Shown: one piece after another, positions 3,626 to 53,879 of the stretch
How positions within the stretch are numbered: position 1 is the first letter of the stretch
How the letters are laid out: every line of letters starts with the position of its first letter
Source of the DNA: Sorex araneus
Lineage: Eukaryota > Chordata > Mammalia > Eulipotyphla > Soricidae
Length of the DNA stretch: 64,000 nucleotides
NCBI RefSeq assembly: GCF_027595985.1
Contig: NC_073313.1
Coordinates: 111,532,552-111,596,551 of the forward strand
Direction: 5' to 3'
Program-made: the position numbers and the translations under genes
Notes under the pieces: generated by a model
Told to the model about the DNA's origin: nothing
Database searches by the model: none
Seen by the model: the letters and a program-made list of their open reading frames with translations, nothing else

Positions 3626-3791
3626 ATTTTTTTGGGTTACACCCGGCGATGCACAATGGTTATTCCTGGCTCTGCACTCAGGAATTACTCTTGGTGGTGC
3701 TCACAAGACCATATGGGATGCTGGGATTCGAATCGGGGTTGGCAGTGTGCAAGGCAAATGCCCTACCTGCTGTGCTATCGCTTTAGCCCCA
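3626..3791 (-). mobile_element. Type-1 SINE (A-tailed, SOR-like)
   Basis: Antisense copy: T-rich tail, GGTTACACCCGGCGATGC, ACCATATGGGATGCTGGG, then the inverted tRNA-like head ending TAGCCCC. A perfect 12-bp TSD GGAAATGAATAC lies at 3614-3625 and 3792-3803. Confidence 0.92.
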
Positions 3792-7596: not shown

Positions 7597-7921
7597 CTTC
7601 TTTTCTTTCCTTTCCTTTCCTTTCCTTTCCTTTCCTTTCCTTTCCTTTCCTTTCCTTTCCTTTCCTTTCCTTTCCTTTCCTTTCCTTTCCTTTCCTTTCC
7701 TTTTCTTTTCTTTCTTTTCTTTTCTTTTCTTTCCTTTTCCTTTTCTTTTTTTTTTTGCTTTTTGTGTGACACTCAGTAATGCTCAGGGGCTACTCCTGGA
7801 TCTGCACTCAGGAATTACTCCTGGCAATGCTTGGGGGACCATATGGGATGCTGTGAATCAAACCCAGGTCGGCCACATGCAAGGCAAATGTCCTACTCGC
7901 TGTACTATCACTTTAGCCCAC
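7597..7921 (-). mobile_element. Type-1 SINE with an expanded (AAAGG)n tail
   Basis: The antisense SINE body lies at about 7752-7921 and its A-tail has become a ~150-bp pentanucleotide array (TTTCC on the plus strand). The TSD lies outside the array: AAGAATGGGTGTG (7584-7596) and AAGAATGGTTGTG (7922-7934), one mismatch. This shows that the array grew from the SINE tail. Confidence 0.92.
7600..7750. repeat. (TTTCC)n microsatellite
   Basis: A near-perfect TTTCC array of about 20 units, degrading into TTTTC-rich sequence next to the SINE. The open frames of Phe/Leu/Ser/Pro or Lys/Arg/Glu repeats across it are artefacts of the array. Confidence 0.97.
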
Positions 7922-18493: not shown

Positions 18494-20060
18494 AGAACAA
18501 AGTTGAATATCCTGTCACAGAGCCCCAAATACATGGCGACTTAATCTTTGACAAAGGAGCGAGAAATGCAAAGTGGAACAAGGAAAGCCTCTTTAACAAG
18601 TGGTGCTGGGAAAACTGGATAGCTACATGTAAAAAAATGAACTCTGACGTCTGTCTAATGCCAGGCACAAAAGTCAGATCAAAGTGGATTAAAGACCTCA
18701 ATATCAGACATGAATCTATAAGGTACATGGGGAAAATGTAGCCAGAACTCTCCATGACATTGAAGCTAAAAGAGTCTTTAAGGATGAAACAGCACTGACT
18801 ACGCAAGTGGAAGCAAACATAGACAAATGGGACTACATCAAACTAAGAAGCTTCTGCACTTCAAAAGAAACAGTGGCCAAAATACAGAAAGACCCCACAG
18901 AATGGGAAAGAATATTTAACCAATAACAACCTGAGAAGGGATTAATATCCAGGATATACAAGACACTGGTAGAATTGTATAAGAAAAAAACCTCCAACCC
19001 CATCAAAATATGGGGAGGAGAAATGAACAGAAGTTTCCTCAAAAAAAGAAATACAAATGGCCAGAAGACACATGAAATAATGCTTCACATTGTGAGTCAT
19101 CAGGGAGATGCAAATCAAAACACCAATGAGATATCATGTCACAGCACAGAGACCGGCACACATTCAAAAGAACAAAAGCAACCAGTGCTGGCGTGGATGT
19201 CGGGGAAAAGGGATGCTCCTTCACTGTTGGTGGGAATGCCGACTGGTCCAGCTTTTCTGGAAAAAAAAATGGATAGTCCTTCAAAAACTGGAAATTGAGC
19301 TTCCATGTGACCCTGCAATACCACTTCTGGGAATATATTCGAGGATGCAAAATAGCACAGTAGAAATGACATCTGTACCTATATATTCATTGCAGCACTG
19401 TTCACAATAGCCAAAATATGGAAACAACCCGAGTGCTCTAAAACAGATGACTAACCAGTCATAAGAAACTTTGGTACATCTACACCATGGGATACTATGC
19501 AGCTGTTAAGAGAGATGAAGTCATGAAATTTGCTTATAAATGGATAGACATGGAGTGTATCATGCTAAGTGAAATGAGTCAGAAAGAGAGGGACAGACAT
19601 ATAGTGGTTTACTCATTTGTGGAGTATAGAATAACATCACATGAGGCTGACACCCAAGGACAGTAGATACAAGGGCCAGGGGTATTGCCCCATAGCTGGA
19701 AGACTGCTTCATGAGCAGAGGGAGAAGGCAGATGGAATAGAGAAGGGATCACTAAGAAAATGATGGCTGGAGGAACCAGCTGGAATGGGAGATGCATGCC
19801 GAAATTAGATAATGGACCAAACATGATGACCTCTCAGTGTCTGTGTTGCAAGCCATAATGCCCAAAAGTAGAGAGAGTATGGGGAATATTGTCTGCCATG
19901 GAGGCAGGGGGAGGGTGGGAAACGGGGGGTATACCCTGGATATTGGTGGTGGGAAATGTGCACTGGTGGAGCGATGGGTGTTTGATCCTTGTGAGATTGT
20001 AACCCAAACATGAAAGCTTGTAACTATCACATGGTGATTCAATAAAATTTTAAAAAAAAT
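18494..20060 (+). mobile_element. L1 3' portion (sense, 5'-truncated)
   Basis: ORF2 from the late thumb region (LIFDKGARNAKWNKESLFNK) through the Cys-rich motif ([18 protein letters not shown]) to the ORF2 end near 19630, then 3'UTR (TAATGCCCAAAAGTAGAGAG, GGTGGGAAATGTGCACTGG) and tail TTCAATAAAATTTTAAAAAAAA. Several frameshifts and stops (near 18740, 18925 and 19390). I did not find a convincing TSD. Confidence 0.9.
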
Positions 20061-21066: not shown

Positions 21067-21642
21067 AAGTCTCCATCGCTGCCATACCTCCCTCCTCCAG
21101 GTAACAGGGACTGCTCTCCTGCACCACCACCGCCCCCGCCCGTGGAGAAAGATCCCTCAGGATGGCCCCCGCTGACCGGCCGAGGCTTTTGAAGCCCCCT
21201 ACCCCCGTTGCTGTCATCAGTCACCTCCATCGCCCCCGTACCTCCCTCCTCCCATCCAGGTATCTGTCCTGAGTCACCCAGGTTTCTGCCCTGCTTCTCC
21301 ACCAGGTGGGGGCGTGTCCTTACGTCAGGGGGCGTGATCTCAAGAGGGGCGTGGCTACTTTCTGAGTGCTGGCCACTAACTTGGCCACAGTTATTTCTCC
21401 CCTTCTCTGCATTGCTCATTTACATCACAATCTGTGTAACCTATCCTTTGAAGAACTCCCTGGCTATCTTTGTCACTAAATGCTAATAGTCAACAACCAT
21501 ATACTAATCTATTTTCATAAAAAGTGTCAGTGAACACAAGAAACTGCATAGAAGCTCTTTATAAGGACATCATAGCCTCAGGTCTTCAATAGGGTCCTAC
21601 ATAAGCTAGGAAAGAGCGCCTGAGATTAAGGCCCATGACAAA
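21067..21642 (+). promoter_or_regulatory. L1 5'UTR with two monomer-like repeats
   Basis: CpG-rich first half with two related units starting near 21071 and 21225 (CTCCATCG....TACCTCCCTCCTCC in each), spaced 154 bp apart. Then GC-rich sequence (GGGGGCGTGTCC, TTACGTCAGGGGGCGTG with a CRE-like TTACGTCA), then AT-rich leader to the ORF1 ATG. The repeated units resemble the tandem promoter monomers of some rodent L1s; that parallel is inference. Confidence 0.65.
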
Positions 21643-22589
21643 ATGAAGAAAGAGCGAAAATCCCCACCACCAGGAGAGAATGAAGAAATGATCACAGAAG
21701 CCTCAACAGGGACTACCCACAAATACAACCTCCTCTCAGATAAAGAATTCAGAGAGGAAATTTTGAAGATGGTTGACAAACTCAAAGCAACTATGGAACG
21801 GACACCTAATAAATTAAGGGAGGATATGAACGCAGCATTGGAACGGACCACCAAAATAATACAGGAAGATATGAGAGCAGAAATCTCAAAGCTACAAACA
21901 GAAGTCACACAATTAAAGGAATCAGTAGATGAAATTAAAAACTCAGTAGGACCCCTCAACAGTAGAATGGCTACAGCCGAAGACAGAATCAGTGAGCTTG
22001 AAGATGAGCTGCAAAAATCATGTAGGCAACAACATATAATGGCAAAAGACCAGAAAATAGCTCTATAGCGAATCAGAGTCCTAGGGGATGACAAGAGGAA
22101 CAATATAAGAATCATTGGAGTACCAGAAGCACAGGGAACTAATACAAATGAAAAAAACATAGTTAAAGACATCAATGCTAAGAAATTCCCAGAGCTAGAG
22201 AATGCAGGCATCCAGATCCAAGGAGCCCGAAGGGTGCCAGCTAGAAGAGACCACAGTAAAAAAATCTCTAAGGCATATCAGTCAGAATAATGGATGCCGT
22301 GGATAGAGACACAATACTGCAAGCAGCAAGGTCAAAGAAGTAAATCACATACAAAGGAGCACCCATTAGATTTACAGCAGACCTATCAGAGGAAACCCTC
22401 CAAGCCCGAAGACAATGGTGGAATATAGTGAAAACACTCAATGAAATGAACGCCTCACCAAGAATACTTTACCCGGCTAAACTCTCACTCAAACTTGAAG
22501 GAACCATACGCTATTTCACGGATAAACAGCAGCTCAGGAACTTCATAGACTCAAAACCAAAACTAAAAGAACAAAAGGGGTTCCTATAA
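21643..22589 (+). pseudogene. L1 ORF1 (RNA-binding chaperone), inactivated
   Basis: Begins MKKERKSPPPGENEEM and proceeds through a polar N-terminus, a coiled coil (about residues 35-130, with heptads such as MRAEISKLQTEVTQLKESVD), then the RRM domain (RNNIRIIGVPEAQG) and C-terminal domain (APIRFTADLSEETLQARRQW, SPRILYPAKLSLKLEGT). About 315 codons, slightly short of the usual ~340. An in-frame TAG follows residue 141, and a frameshift lies near 22290. In active L1s this protein forms trimers that coat L1 RNA in the cytoplasmic RNP. Confidence 0.92.
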
Positions 22590-22630
22590 GACAAGGAAAA
22601 ACCTACAAGAACAACAAACCCTACAGAAAG

Positions 22631-25600
22631 ATGACACAAAATCCTATGACAACAATCTCTCTTAATGTCAACGGTCTAAATGCACCAATCAAGAGGCACA
22701 GAGTGGCAAAATGAATTCGGAAACTAAATCCAACGTTCTTCTAACTACAAGAAAAACACCTGAACAGTCAGAGTAAACACAGGCTCAAAGCCAAAGGATG
22801 GAAAACAATCCTACAAGCAAACAACTCCCTCAAAAAAGCTGGGGTGGCCATACTAATATCTGACAACATAGATTTCAGGCTGAAAAAGGTTAGAAGGGAC
22901 AGTGAAGGTCATTTTCTATTCATCAAGGGATATATACAACAGGAAGAAATCACAGTCTTAAACATATACACACCTAATGAGCGACCAGCTAAATACTTAA
23001 AACAACTCCTAGCAGAATTTAATGGTGACATCAATAGCACCATGATAGTAGTTGGAGACTTCAACACTGCCTTATCACCTCTGGATAGATCCACAAGAAC
23101 AAAACTTAGCAAGAAAACAATGACTCTGAAAAAAGAAATGGAGGAGAGAGGGTTAATAGACCTATACAGGACTTTACACGTCAAAAAAGAAAAAAATACA
23201 CATTCTTCTCCAGTACACACGGAACATTTTTCAATGTGTTCTATTGAACACATTCTGGGTCACAAAATATCTCAATAGTATCGGAAAGATAGAAATTGTA
23301 TCAACTATCTTTTCAGACCATGATGCGCTAAAGATAGAAGTTAATCGCACACAGAGTTGGAGAACCAAATCAAACACTTGGAAATTAAACAACTCATTGT
23401 TGAACAATGAGTGGGTCACAGAGCAAATTAAGGAAGAAATCAAAAGATACCTCGAAACAAATGAGAATGAAGACACAAGCTATCGGAACCTATGGGATGC
23501 AGCTAATGCTGTGTTAAGGGGAAAACTTATAGCCCTGCAAGCATTCCTCAGGAAGGAAAAAAGGGCTTACATAGATAGCTTGACTTTGCAGCTGAAGATC
23601 TTAGAAAAGGACCAGAAAAGGAACCCAAACCAGATCTAATGAAAGAAATAACGAAAATTAGAACAGAAATTAACAACATGGAAAGCCAGAAAACAATCTG
23701 AAAGATCAATGAAACAAAGAGCTGGTTCTTCGACAAAATAAACAAGATTGATAAACAACTATCAAGACTCACAAAGAAAGAGAGAGAGAACCCTAGTAAA
23801 CTGAATCTGAAATGAAAAGGGGTACATCACAACAGAAACCAATGAAAATCAAAAGATCATCAGAGACTACTTTGAAAGTCTGTATGCCACAAAATAAGAG
23901 AACCTAAAACAATTGGATAAATTCCTGGATTCCTACAATCTCCCAAGACTGAACCAAGAAGACTTGAAATACCTGCACAAACCCATTAATATCAAGGAAA
24001 TTAAAACTGTAATCAAAAGTCTTCCCCAAAACAAAAGCCCAGGCACAGATCTTTTCGCTAGCGAATTCTTCCAAACATTTAAAGAGGACCTGTTGCCAGT
24101 TCTCCTCAAGCTTTTCCAGTAAATTAAAAAAAACAGGAACTCTCCCAAACAGTTTCTATGAAGCACATATCTCCCTAATACCAAAGCAAATAAAGACAAT
24201 GCTATCAAGGAAAACTACAGGCCAATATCCCTGATGAACACATATGCGAAGATCCTCAACAAAATACTAGCAAGTAGAATCCAACAACTCAACAAAAAGA
24301 TCATATATCATAACCAAGTCGGATTCATTCCTGGGATGCAAGGATGGATGTTTTAATATTTGGAAATCAATCAACATAATCCATCACATCAACAAAACTA
24401 AAAATTAAAACCATATGATCATTTCAATAGATGCAGGGAAAGCACTTGACAAGATCCAACATCCATTTATGATGAAAACTCTCACCAATATGGGTTTAGA
24501 AGGAACTTTCCTCAAGATAGTCAAAGCCATCTATCAAAAACCCATGGCAAGCATTATCCTCATTGGAGAAAACCTAAGGGCCTTTCCTCTAAGATCAAGG
24601 ACAAGACAAGGATGCCCACTCTCACCACTACTGTTCATCATAGTACTGGAAGTACTTGCCATAGAAATTAGGCAAGAAAAATACATTAAGTTCATCCAGA
24701 TAGGAAAGTAATAAATCAAGCTCTCGCTATTCGCAGATGACATTATTCACAGATGACATGATTCTATACCTAGAGAATCCTAAAAAATCCACTAAGAAAC
24801 TCCTAGAAACCATAGACATGTACAGTAAAGTTACAGGTTATAAAATCAATACCCCAAAATCCATGGCCTTCCTATACGCAAACAGTGAGACAGAGGAAAG
24901 TGACATAAAAAAATGCCATTCACAATTGTGCCCCAGAATATCAAGTACCTCGGAATCAGTCTAACTAAAGAGGTTAAGTATCTCTACAAATAAAACTACA
25001 AAACGCTACTTGAAATAAAAGAAGTCATGAGGAAATGGAAAGATATTCCCTGCTCATGGATAGGAAGACTTAACATTGTCAAAATGGCAATACTCACTAA
25101 AGCACTATACAAGTTCAATGCAATCCCTTTAAGGACACCCATGAAAGTCTTCAAAGAAATGGATCAAGCAATCCTGAAATTCATATAGAACAACAAATGC
25201 CCACGAATAGCTAAAGCAATTCTAGGGAAAAAGATGATGGGAGGCATCACCCTCCCCAACCTTAAGCTCTACTACAAAGAAGTAACAATTAAAACAGCAT
25301 GATACTGGAACAAAGGTAGAGTCACAGACCAATGGAACTGGGTGGAATATCCCTACACATCACCCCAATTGTATGAAGATCTAATCTTTGATGAGGGAGC
25401 AAGAAATGTGAAGTGAAGCAAGGAAAACCCCTTTAACAAATGGTGCTGCATAACTGGTCAACCACATGCAAAAAAATGGGCTTAGACCTTGACCTGACAC
25501 CATGCACAAATGTCAGATCAAAATGGATTAAAGACCTCAACTCAGACAACATTTCGTAAGGTACATTGAAGACATGGTTGAAAAAACCCTCCACGATATT

Positions 25601-26451
25601 GAAGCTAAAGGTATCTTCAAAGACACAGAGCTAAGCAATCAAGTTGAAACAGAGATAAATGGGACTACATTAAACTAAAAAGCTTCAGCAACCCAAAAGA
25701 CACAGTTACCAGAATACAAAGGCAACTTACAGAATGGGAAAGCATATTCACCCAATACCCATCTGATAAGGGGTTGATACCAAGAGTTTATAAAGCACTG
25801 GTTGAAATCTACAAGAAGAAAACATCCAGTCCCATCAGAAAATGTGACTAAGAAATGAACAGAAACTTTCTCAAGGAAGAAATACAAATGGCCAAAAAGC
25901 ACATGAAAAAATGCTCATCACTAATCATCAGGGAGATGCAGATCAAAACAACTATGAGTATCACCTCACACTACAGAGAATGGCACACATCCAAAAGAAC
26001 ATAAGCAACCGATGTTGGCATGGATGTGGGGAGAAAGGGACCCTCCTGCACTGCTGGTGGGAATGCCAACTGGTTCAACCCTCCTGGAAAACAATATGGT
26101 CGTTCCTCAAAAAATTAGAAATTGTGCTCCCATTTGACCCAGCAATACCACTACTGGGAATATATTCTGGAGAGGAAAAAAGGTATAGTCGAAATGACAT
26201 CTGCACTTGTATGTTCATCGCAGCACTGTTTACAATAGCCCAAATCTGGAAAAAACCTGAGTGCCCGAGAACAGATGACTGGCTAAAGAAACTTTGGTAC
26301 ATCTACACAATGGAATACTATGCAGCTGTCAGAAAAGGTGAAGTCATGAACTTTGCATAGAGATGGATCAATATGGAAAGCATCATGTTAAGTGAAATGA
26401 ACCAGAAAGAGAGACAGACATAGAAGAATTGCAATCATCTGTGGAATATAA
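22631..26451 (+). pseudogene. L1 ORF2 (endonuclease-reverse transcriptase), inactivated
   Basis: About 1273 codons, the normal L1 ORF2 length. ATG at 22631 is chosen because the APE-type endonuclease starts at once (SLNVNGLNAPIKRHR). The endonuclease motifs LQEKH, VVGDFNTALSPLDR and SDHD are visible, then RT motifs including [11 protein letters not shown] at about 24605 and the catalytic FADD/FTDD region at 24728-24760. The C-terminal Cys motif reads [18 protein letters not shown] near 26010, and the protein ends ICGI. Several stops (codons near 22710 and 22740) and frameshifts make it non-functional. The RT active-site region holds a 16-bp tandem duplication that shifts the frame. Confidence 0.93.
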
Positions 26452-26944
26452 AACAACAGAATGGGAGACTAACACCCAAGAATAGCAGAAATAAGTACCA
26501 TATTTGCTCCATGGCTTGGAAGCCGGCCTCACATGCTGGGGGAAAAGGCAGCTCAGATAGAGAAGTTAACACCAAGTAAAAATGTGCTGGGAGTATTTTC
26601 TCGGGATGGGAGAGGCGTGCTTAAAGCAGACTATAGACCAAACATGATGGCCACCCAATACCTCCATTTCTAACCACAATACTTAAAAGGAGAGAAAGAG
26701 CAAAAGGGAATGCCCTGCCACAGAGGCGGGGTGGGTGGGATGCGGTGGGAGGGGTTGGAGGGATGATGGGGCTATCAGGGGAGAATGGGCACTGGTGAAG
26801 GGATGGATACTTAAGCTGTGTATGACTGAAATACAAGCACGATAATGCATAAATCTGTATATGTACCCCTATGGTGATTCATTAAATAAAAAAAGAATAA
26901 ATAAAAAAGAAGGAAAAATTAAAAAGTAAATTAAACTGCACTCT

Positions 26945-51099: not shown

Positions 51100-51215
51100 C
51101 TTTTACCTGCAGAAATAACAGTGAATAGAAATTAAGTGACTTGTCCAAAGTCATACAGTCAGTGGTGATTATCACATTATCAGCTATATTCCCAGTAATG
51201 TGCCAGAATTTGATT
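51100..51215 (+). mobile_element. MIR/L2-type ancient repeat fragment
   Basis: AAGTGACTTGTCCAAAGTCATACAGTCAGTGG matches the conserved MIR/L2 phrase (TTGCCCAAGGTCACACAG). Confidence 0.6.
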
Positions 51216-51245
51216 ATATGGTGGTAAGAAACATTGATGTAGTTT

Positions 51246-51440
51246 TTTTTTATTTAAATTTTATTGAATCACCATGTGGAGGGTTACATAGTTCTCAGGA
51301 TTATGTCAGTTATACAATACTCAAACACCCTTCCCTTCACCAGTGCCCATATTCCATCACCAACCACCCCATTATACCTCCCGCCCCCTCCCGGCCCCCC
51401 AGTCCCCGCCCTTGTAAGTGATAAGTTTCACTTCGTTTAC
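51246..51440 (-). mobile_element. L1-like 3' module of the composite element
   Basis: Antisense T-run, TTTTATTGAATCACCATGTGG, CAGTTATACAATACTCAAAC, CCCTTCCCTTCACCAGTGCCC: the L1 3' end used in this genome. It supplies the tail that L1 reverse transcriptase presumably recognises. Confidence 0.85.
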
Positions 51441-52071
51441 ACTTTATCATGGTTACATTCCATGTTTCAACACATAACTCACTATTGTTGCTAGGGTTTC
51501 CCCCCAAAAAAGAAAAGACAGTCCTACTGTCAAGGAAGCATTTGATAGCTCTCCATTGCTGAGAATGTAGAGATATTAAGTCTTGCTGTTTGTTACATAA
51601 CTTTTCTATTTTTCCCCCCTCGTCCCGCACCACCGAGTTCACGCTTGTTTAGTAATCACCACGCTGCCTGACAAAGGGAAAAGAAAAACGAAAAAGATGG
51701 TTATTTCCCGTCATCAGCCGGCGTGGGGCTCTGGCTTAGTTGATAGTCTGGTAGAATGTCTGCAAGCAGTTTCTGGAACCAAAAGTAATACGCTGGTATC
51801 GGCCCCGGCTCGAGATTCCACCAGCGTCCCGCTGTTCCAAGTACATAATAATTTATTCCCTTGTATCCGATTCCCACGCCACCAGGTCCGTGTCAGCTTA
51901 ATGGACGTCATACTATGGTTAACGCCACGCCGCGTTTCTTCCCGAGAAAGAAGGATATTTCTACTCAGCCGGCGTGGGGATATGGCTTAGTTCAGTCTAT
52001 AGAGATGGCTACCACTTTGATTGCCTTCAATATTTCAGCAAAAGACTTACTATTCTTGTTAGGATGTCCCA

Positions 52072-52742
52072 CCAAAGTCCAACCGTTAAAAAGGAACCAT
52101 TTCATATTGGTGATGATTAAATAACATTAGGTCGCGCGGCCATGTCAGCGGCCTCGCGGCTTTGAATTTCTGTATAAAGTCCAGGGAAAGTACAGCCAGA
52201 AATTACACGTCACTACAAACTTTAACCCTATTATCTTACCCCCAAAGTCCAACCCGTTACAAAGGAACCATTTCTTATTGGTGATGATTAAATGACATTA
52301 GGTTGCACAGCCATGGCAGCGGCCTCGCATCTTTGAATTTCTGTATAAAGTCCAGGGAAAGTACAGCTAGAAATTACACGTCACTACAAACTTTAACCCT
52401 ATTATGGTCCCCCCAAAGTCCAACCCGTTACAAAGGAACCATTTCATATTGCTGATGATTAGATGACGTTAGGTCGCGCGGCCGCAGCAGCGGCTGCGCA
52501 GTTTTGGCTTTCTATATAAAGTACAGGGAAAATTCTGCCTAAAATTCTATCGCTACAATCTTTTACCCTTCAACAAAAAACTCAGTACTATTGTTTGGAG
52601 TTTCCCCCCACGGTAAGCCCTGCTAAAAAGGAACATTTACACGTTGCTGACAATCAAGAGATATTAGGCTGCAATAGCAGCCGCGCGGTTTTGGATTTCT
52701 ATATGAAGTCCAGGGAAAATTCTTTTGGTAATTGCATCACTC
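52072..52742 (-). repeat. tandem array of ~170-bp units (VNTR-like)
   Basis: Units begin (plus strand) at 52072, 52242, 52413 and, more diverged, 52609. Each has CCAAAGTCCAACC, AAAGGAACCATTTC, TGATGATTA, ATTAGGT CGCGCGGCC, and TATAAAGTCCAGGGAAA. Units 1-3 are highly similar over their whole length; the fourth is clearly related. A fifth, more decayed relative lies at about 51480-51590. Confidence 0.9.
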
Positions 52743-52860
52743 GCTGGCGGCGCCTGGGCCAGTAGCTCTGAGCACACAGTTTGGAGGCATTTTGGGGGCG
52801 CTGCTCGTGTCCAAAGTGGTTCAGTTGCCTCCGGGGTCGATCTCGTGTGGCCGCAGAAAA
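52743..52860 (-). repeat. GC-rich module, inner copy
   Basis: 118 bp beginning GCTGGCGGCGCCTGGGCC on the plus strand, nearly identical to 53017-53133. In sense it lies between the outer module and the VNTR. Confidence 0.92.
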
Positions 52861-53016
52861 GAGCGTACACACATGGCTCTGTGCTTAAATATCGGCACAG
52901 GGCGGATCGGGAAGTCCCACCTCATCGGCTTTCCCAGGCTTCCTGCATAGTCTAAAAACTGGCTGTTGCCTTGCTGCGTTCAAAAGAAAGAGTTGAGAGA
53001 GAAAAGACTATACCCT

Positions 53017-53133
53017 GCTGGCGGCGCCTGGGCCAGTAGCTCCGAGCACACAGTTTGGAGGCATTTTGGGGGCGCTGCTTGTGTCCAAAGTGGTTCAGTT
53101 GCCTCCGGGGTCGATCTCGCGCAGCGGCAGAAA
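53017..53133 (-). repeat. GC-rich module, outer (5'-terminal) copy
   Basis: 117 bp, with only a few substitutions from 52743-52860. It forms the 5' end of the insertion on the minus strand, directly at the TSD. As the 5'-terminal CpG-rich block it is a plausible internal promoter, but this is inference. Confidence 0.9.
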
Positions 53134-53150
53134 AAACATTGATGTAGTTT

Positions 53151-53879
53151 TAAACTTTAGGAAACTTGCATCCTAAATGTGCAAAGGAGGAGTAATCTAA
53201 CCATCAAATACACACATATACAAATACACATCAAACATCAATTCAAATGCCTGGTAATGTAGTGAAGGAAAGGTATATTCAATATGAGGTTATAGATATT
53301 AGGGGTAATTGACTGTTTGAGGGGTCATAGATGCGTCTCTTAGGGAAGTCTTTTTGAAATTAAAAAATACCAAGTTGTTAATAATGGAAAGAGTAGTACA
53401 GAATATTAATTTTGTCAGTGAAATAACCACAAAATTCTTATTGAAGAGATAAGCACAGATGATGCATGCACATACATATGAATATAATGACTGAACCAGA
53501 GAAATGAAGAGTAACTTAGGAAAAAGATACTGAAAAGGTAGGCACTAATGAGCCCAAACAATGCATGGAGATTATATTAAGAAACGTTCTTTTTATGTTA
53601 TAATAATAAAAAGTAACTGAAGAAATTCATTATGGCATGAGTTGAGGTGGTAGACTGAAGATATGGTTTTAAACAGTGAATTGCAGAAATGTGAAAATAG
53701 ATAGGATGGACATGAAAGTAGAACAGAATTATGTTGAAATAAAACTCAAGCCCTACTTTAGCCAATCTTTATGGTACTGTTTTGATATAAATGGAAGCCT
53801 CAGTGAATTAAATGACACAAATGTTCTGATGATTAAGAATCTACTGCTTTCACATACATTTTACTGTTTCAGTTACTGA
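53151..53879. other. no recognised element
   Basis: AT-rich non-coding DNA. Confidence 0.4.

Follow-up and report, generated by a model that had tools for sequence, protein, structure and literature searches.

A recently active, SVA-like composite retrotransposon family, probably mobilised by L1, in the shrew Sorex araneus

The locus and the question

In the relevant passages of PMC4432496, the SVA, LAVA, PVA and FVA elements are defined by a 5' CT-hexamer and Alu-like region together with a VNTR of 30-50 bp GC-rich units, and these VNTR composites are called specific to hominoid primates. An earlier note on a stretch of Sorex araneus DNA of 64,000 nucleotides (contig NC_073313.1, positions 111,532,552 to 111,596,551 of the forward strand; hereafter the window) had proposed that one insertion within it represents an independent, convergent composite family of the shrew lineage. 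The question raised by this locus is whether such a family exists and, if so, how it moves. The insertion very probably belongs to a recently active shrew family of non-autonomous composite retrotransposons, transcribed by RNA polymerase II and mobilised in trans by L1. It is best read as an L1-mobilised, non-autonomous VNTR composite with an origin independent from that of hominoid SVA/LAVA: SVA-like in its working, but not SVA.

Structure of the insertion

The earlier note had described a single insertion of 1,888 bp with a perfect 17-bp target site duplication (TSD), a poly(A)-type tail, an L1-like 3' end, a tandem array of ~170 bp, two 117-bp modules at its 5' end, no ORF and a CpG content far above that of the flanks, and this description was borne out. 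The flanks are identical over 18 bases, of which base 51246 is common to the TSD and the tail, giving a TSD of 17-18 bp. An A-run (a T-run on the plus strand) closes the 3' end of the element, the sense of which is on the minus strand, so that its 5' end lies at 53133. Read along the sense strand, the layout is M(117)-Sp(157)-M(117)-V array-MID-P-T-poly(A), with the following features.

51229-51246, minus strand: 3' TSD, 18 bp identical to 53134-53151, base 51246 common to the tail
51246-53133, minus strand: whole insertion, 1,888 bp, with a TSD at both edges; the best 40 of 4,828 genome candidates (self included) match
51246-51397, minus strand: 3' module T, an L1 3'-UTR-like end plus poly(A) tail; 76% identical across 117 bp to the end of an older L1 elsewhere in the window, and matching young L1 over 35-60 bp
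51444-51572, minus strand: P, a degenerate array-unit remnant 5' of T, from alignment with the array units and the MID-less older relative L075
51573-52012, minus strand: MID module, ~440 bp; blastn match in 46 of 46 copies, no match in L075
52013-52742, minus strand: V array, four 171-bp-type units with anchors near 52719, 52532, 52361 and 52190 (TRF, repeat search and unit alignment)
52743-52859, minus strand: 5' module M, second copy, 117 bp, GC-rich; 94.9% identical to the first copy
52860-53016, minus strand: spacer Sp, 157 bp, putative promoter with a TATA-like box; kept in full by 29 of 46 copies
52884-52893, minus strand: TATA-like box GATATTTAAG, its first base 34 bp ahead of the following M
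53017-53133, minus strand: 5' module M, first copy, its start being the putative transcription start (5'-end clustering, 21 of 36 TSD-delimited copies)
53134-53151, minus strand: 5' TSD, 18 bp identical to 51229-51246

TRF reported 2.7 copies of the 171-bp unit at 52072-52531, the count of four including diverged units, and no hexamer array in the element. A 28-nt direct repeat occurs inside MID at a spacing of 251 bp, and the repeat search gave no terminal repeat pair in the element beyond the TSD. The 76% match of the terminal 117 bp is to window 19943-20059, where an older L1 ends and ORF2 sequence lies immediately upstream. The CpG observed/expected ratio of the element was 0.78, that of the remaining window 0.21. 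No stop-to-stop frame is longer than 129 aa, the length of an antisense one, and none of seven frames scanned against Pfam reached the cut-off, the best sub-threshold match being PF12073 at 14.6 bits against a cut-off of 20.3. A search of 51200-53160 against Rfam at E ≤ 1 yielded no match, and the whole window likewise yielded nothing.

Copies in the shrew genome

The source genome (2.41 Gb in 65 contigs) was searched with the element, yielding 4,828 first-look candidates; scores were obtained for the best 40, self included, and all of these matched. In whole-genome pattern counts allowing up to 3 mismatches, a 48-nt piece of the 3' end occurred 5,155 times and a 48-nt piece of MID 1,924 times, with none for the reversed control in either case. 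The excess of 3' ends over MID fits 5' truncation, and MID-less forms may contribute. The union of four best-40 lists comprised at least 122 distinct places on 12 contigs. The copies are thus dispersed, with a common 3' end, distinct TSDs and arrays of variable length, which supports the independent, convergent family that had been proposed and, with such numbers of 3' ends and MID pieces, disposes of the alternative of a single copy.

A sample of 46 copies was analysed, consisting of the 40 best matches and six of the 36 new places among 40 listed matches to the 3' end; these six also carry M, V, MID and T. Because all 46 are best matches, young and long copies are over-represented. Mean pairwise K2P distance among 45 copies was 4.2%, or 2.7% with CpG columns masked, and their tree has many short inner branches, four of 42 of them well supported, and a median end branch of 0.018. 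Donor loci of M, V and MID were not found among the best 40 candidates of the genome DNA searches, all of which are family members.

Insertion marks and relation to L1

TSDs were scored against 224 control pairs in which the flanks of different copies were mixed. A score of at least 14 was reached by 31 of 46 copies against one control pair, and of at least 10 by 39 copies against 39 control pairs; 15 of the 46 were without a TSD at score 14. The nick site was tallied in 30 copies, namely the 31 of score 14 or more minus L029 (an AT repeat), and in these the TSD measured 14-20 bp. A self-defined L1-endonuclease-like pattern (a pyrimidine followed by A or G and next by A, and a minimum of three purines in four) was present at 24 of the 30 TSDs compared with 255 of 6,000 random flank positions (4%); in L015 and L024, where the TSD begins with T, its start was shifted by one base. 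Two copies, L023 and L039, start with inverted 5' sequence. Such 5' inversion is the twin-priming sign of L1.

Copies L020 and L042 are inserted within L1 copies, 14 bp of which recur at both edges. These independent insertions lie at almost the same position of L1 ORF2 (about L1 nt 3686-3700), possibly a preferred insertion site. In L070 (sense ~343-2300) a partly inverted L1 3' end stands 5' of a family copy, both within one 15-bp TSD, and may represent an L1 3' transduction or a nested insertion; it was retained in the TSD and nick counts and is the basis for nothing else.

Young L1s are present in the genome, eight copies being 98.9-99.4% identical to L058 over ~5.7 kb. ORF1 (351 aa) and ORF2 (1,286 aa) are open in four of ten fetched L1 loci (L058, L061, L062 and L065), hence L1 is probably active. 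The 5'UTR of young L1 has no match to the element, and its 3'UTR matches over only 35-60 bp, in nine of the ten loci. The 3' end of the element, only distantly like that of young L1, has a longer match to the older L1 end in the window. A near-complete older L1, 84% identical to young L1 and with ORF1 and ORF2 remnants, occupies window 21307-26911. The insertion marks fit L1, which would be the motor of mobilisation in trans.

5' ends and putative promoter

The first 70 bases of 36 TSD-delimited copies were aligned to the monomer. These 36 are the 39 copies with a TSD score of at least 10 minus the doubtful L025, L029 and L043; six of them (L018, L020, L021, L039, L042 and L067) score only 10-13. 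The match started within -6 to +3 of the start of M in 21 of the 36, at +8 in two and at -39 to -21 in seven. The remaining six were L071 (-106), L015 (+80), L020 (captured exon), L023 and L039 (inverted) and L070. The seven at -39 to -21 (L017, L018, L024, L032, L034, L037 and L045) form a second cluster, located in the upstream spacer at its TATA region, for which a single start site does not account.

Most copies have 0-4 extra unmatched bases at the 5' end; there are 9-10 in L014, L067 and L072, where the start motif is doubled, and seven in L040 (start at +8). Seven of the 21 copies starting at M begin, as read by eye, with a G absent from the monomer at that place, which weakly suggests a copied cap. 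The 5' part looks like an RNA polymerase II promoter made of monomers, and the full spacer is kept in 29 of the 46 copies as counted from blastn match rows. Transcription from the spacer would begin at the next M, so that a copy starting at its last M would have lost its promoter.

Array, 5' modules and subfamilies

By anchor count, 34 of the 46 copies have three V units, ten have four and two have two. The unit-counted copies include L067, which has three units in an array broken and lengthened in span by a SINE, and the 5'-inverted L039. To see if array length goes with subfamily, unit number was placed on the tree; it required eight changes (bootstrap 7-9), a number as low being reached in 95 of 500 shuffles, and the strongly supported branches force only two.

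One of the two-unit copies, L026, carries a different 5' module, M', which is ~69% like M-Sp over 147 bp. A genome search with M' gave 1,807 candidates, the best 40 of which all match, the main matches besides self at 83-92%. Five M'-type loci were sampled over 381 nt each, and all five run into V: L076-L078 have one V unit and then MID, and L080 and L079, the latter interrupted by an L1-type insertion, have two. Across the family V units thus number from one to four, M'-type loci having one or two. The idea that the M' subfamily is older than M was dropped, L076-L078 being 97% identical over 381 nt, about as close as M-type copies.

An older relative, L075, is 68% identical to the 3' part of the element and ends in poly(A); its TSD, read by eye, is AAGAACCCTATTCAG. 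Because L075 joins one V-like unit directly to T, without a match to MID, MID was probably acquired by a V-T ancestor, as this one copy indicates.

A spliced-looking 5' exon in L020

In L020, M is separated from the TSD by 190 bp. Of these, the first 92 bp correspond to a repeat, LTR-like by appearance, with 1,504 first-look genome candidates and 97-99% identity among the 92-bp matches listed. In the genomic copy L074 (213-304, minus strand) the match stops right before GT, so that the junction in L020 is splice-donor-like. The following 95 bp are 99% identical to C1:197402950-197403044, a genomic site preceded by the acceptor TTTTCTCTAG. This spliced-looking structure is the expected remnant of splicing of an upstream-started RNA, with template switching as an alternative origin of the 5' sequence. 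The 601 bp fetched around C1:197403044 contain no element; the source insertion may be absent from this haplotype, as expected of presence/absence polymorphism, or have been lost.

Exon capture of this kind gave rise to chimpanzee and human SVA subfamilies (STK40-SVA and MAST2-SVA_F1), as reported in the passages of PMC6139936 on these non-canonical SVAs, with which the spliced-looking 5' exon of this one shrew copy may be compared.

Alternative origins

The family might instead be an internally deleted derivative of an extinct or unsampled L1 lineage that kept a monomeric 5'UTR and the 3'UTR and lost its ORFs. Its 3' end is indeed L1-derived, and L1s of the mouse commonly bear promoter monomers in tandem (monomer passages of PMC9022269). 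However, blastn to 18 L1 loci (ten long and eight around ORF1, with few older L1s) matched the 3' end alone, in nine of them, and gave no match to M, Sp, V or MID. Nor did any of the five sampled M'-type loci, all of which reach V within the 381 nt, show a match to ORF1, and descent by deletion is accordingly regarded as unlikely.

An ERV or other LTR element has two LTRs and a TSD of 4-6 bp. The poly(A) 3' end, TSDs of 14-20 bp and 5' inversions of the shrew family do not fit integrase, and the element has neither a terminal repeat pair nor a Pfam match above cut-off in seven frames. A retroviral fragment, for example an LTR with leader, is thus very improbable and was rejected, the marks not fitting the ERV internal region that the earlier note had named as a refuting result, even though the 5' part bears a TATA-like box, L020 is joined to an LTR-like exon and SVA itself includes an ERV piece (SVA description in PMC4432496). 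A satellite, a segmental-duplication fragment or a single processed transcript has next to no probability: the element does contain a tandem array, but thousands of pattern matches and dispersed copies with TSDs of their own led to rejection of satellite and processed transcript. The L1-mobilised VNTR composite remains the preferred reading.

Proposed mechanism

In this preferred reading, family members would comprise promoter monomers [M-Sp]n-M, one to four 171-bp units, MID, the end resembling an L1 3'UTR, and poly(A). Transcription by RNA polymerase II would start at M under the TATA box of the preceding spacer, and the polyadenylated, non-coding RNA would be taken in trans by L1 ORF2p, which would nick a TT/AAAA-type site and reverse-transcribe the RNA. 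The predicted outcome is TSDs of 14-20 bp, 5' truncations and occasional 5' inversions. New copies with a retained spacer could be transcribed anew; copies starting at the last M lost the spacer, which may favour turnover of the 5' modules.

Comparison with known retroelements

A SINE has an RNA polymerase III head derived from tRNA, 7SL or 5S, whereas the shrew element has no Rfam match and a TATA-type start. HAL1 and other L1-derived non-autonomous elements have an L1 3' end and L1-type insertion, and so does the shrew element, but no L1 ORF is left in it and everything except its 3' end is unlike the sampled L1s. It likewise differs from L1 itself in lacking ORF1 and ORF2. In mouse L1 the monomer types differ between subfamilies. 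The shrew element resembles the mouse L1 5'UTR, as outlined in PMC9022269, in its tandem 5' monomers, but these stand on a non-coding element and include a TATA-like box.

The resemblance to SVA, LAVA, PVA and FVA lies in a non-coding, non-autonomous, composite structure with a central tandem array, poly(A) and L1-type insertion marks; the 3' part of LAVA also contains an L1 (L1ME) fragment (LAVA passage of PMC4432496). Unlike that group as defined in print, the shrew family has M-Sp-M at its 5' end, with no CT-hexamer or Alu-like part seen, and a unit of 171 bp rather than 30-50 bp, in an array that is short beside that of SVA. Its 3' end is formed by MID and the L1 end, not by SINE-R.

On balance, though by a modest degree of belief, this would be the first VNTR-composite, L1-dependent family outside hominoid primates, combining an SVA-convergent layout with splice-mediated 5' exon capture, swapping of 5' modules and later gain of MID, and possibly still mobile. 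No description of such a shrew element appears in the titles and abstract openings of the literature searched, nor in the passages of PMC6542046 and PMC8608897 containing the search terms, and the portions of PMC13174262 covered contain neither 'shrew' nor 'Sorex'; the family may well already have an entry in a curated mammalian TE library. With VNTR composites called hominoid-specific, the features that matter in them are hard to tell from the others, and an independent family with a different 5' part, array and 3' end helps here. It allows one to ask whether the requirement of L1 in trans is for a polyadenylated, GC-rich, repeat-bearing RNA or for particular sequences. The history of assembly is partly visible in one genome, through a MID-less old relative, one to four units and two types of 5' module.

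Two further observations concern the window as a whole. The soricid SINE primer and probe listed in a table of PMC8608897 match it six and three times, respectively, with up to 2 mismatches, against none in shuffled sequences. A (CTTTC)n array of ~30 units lies at 7600-7748.
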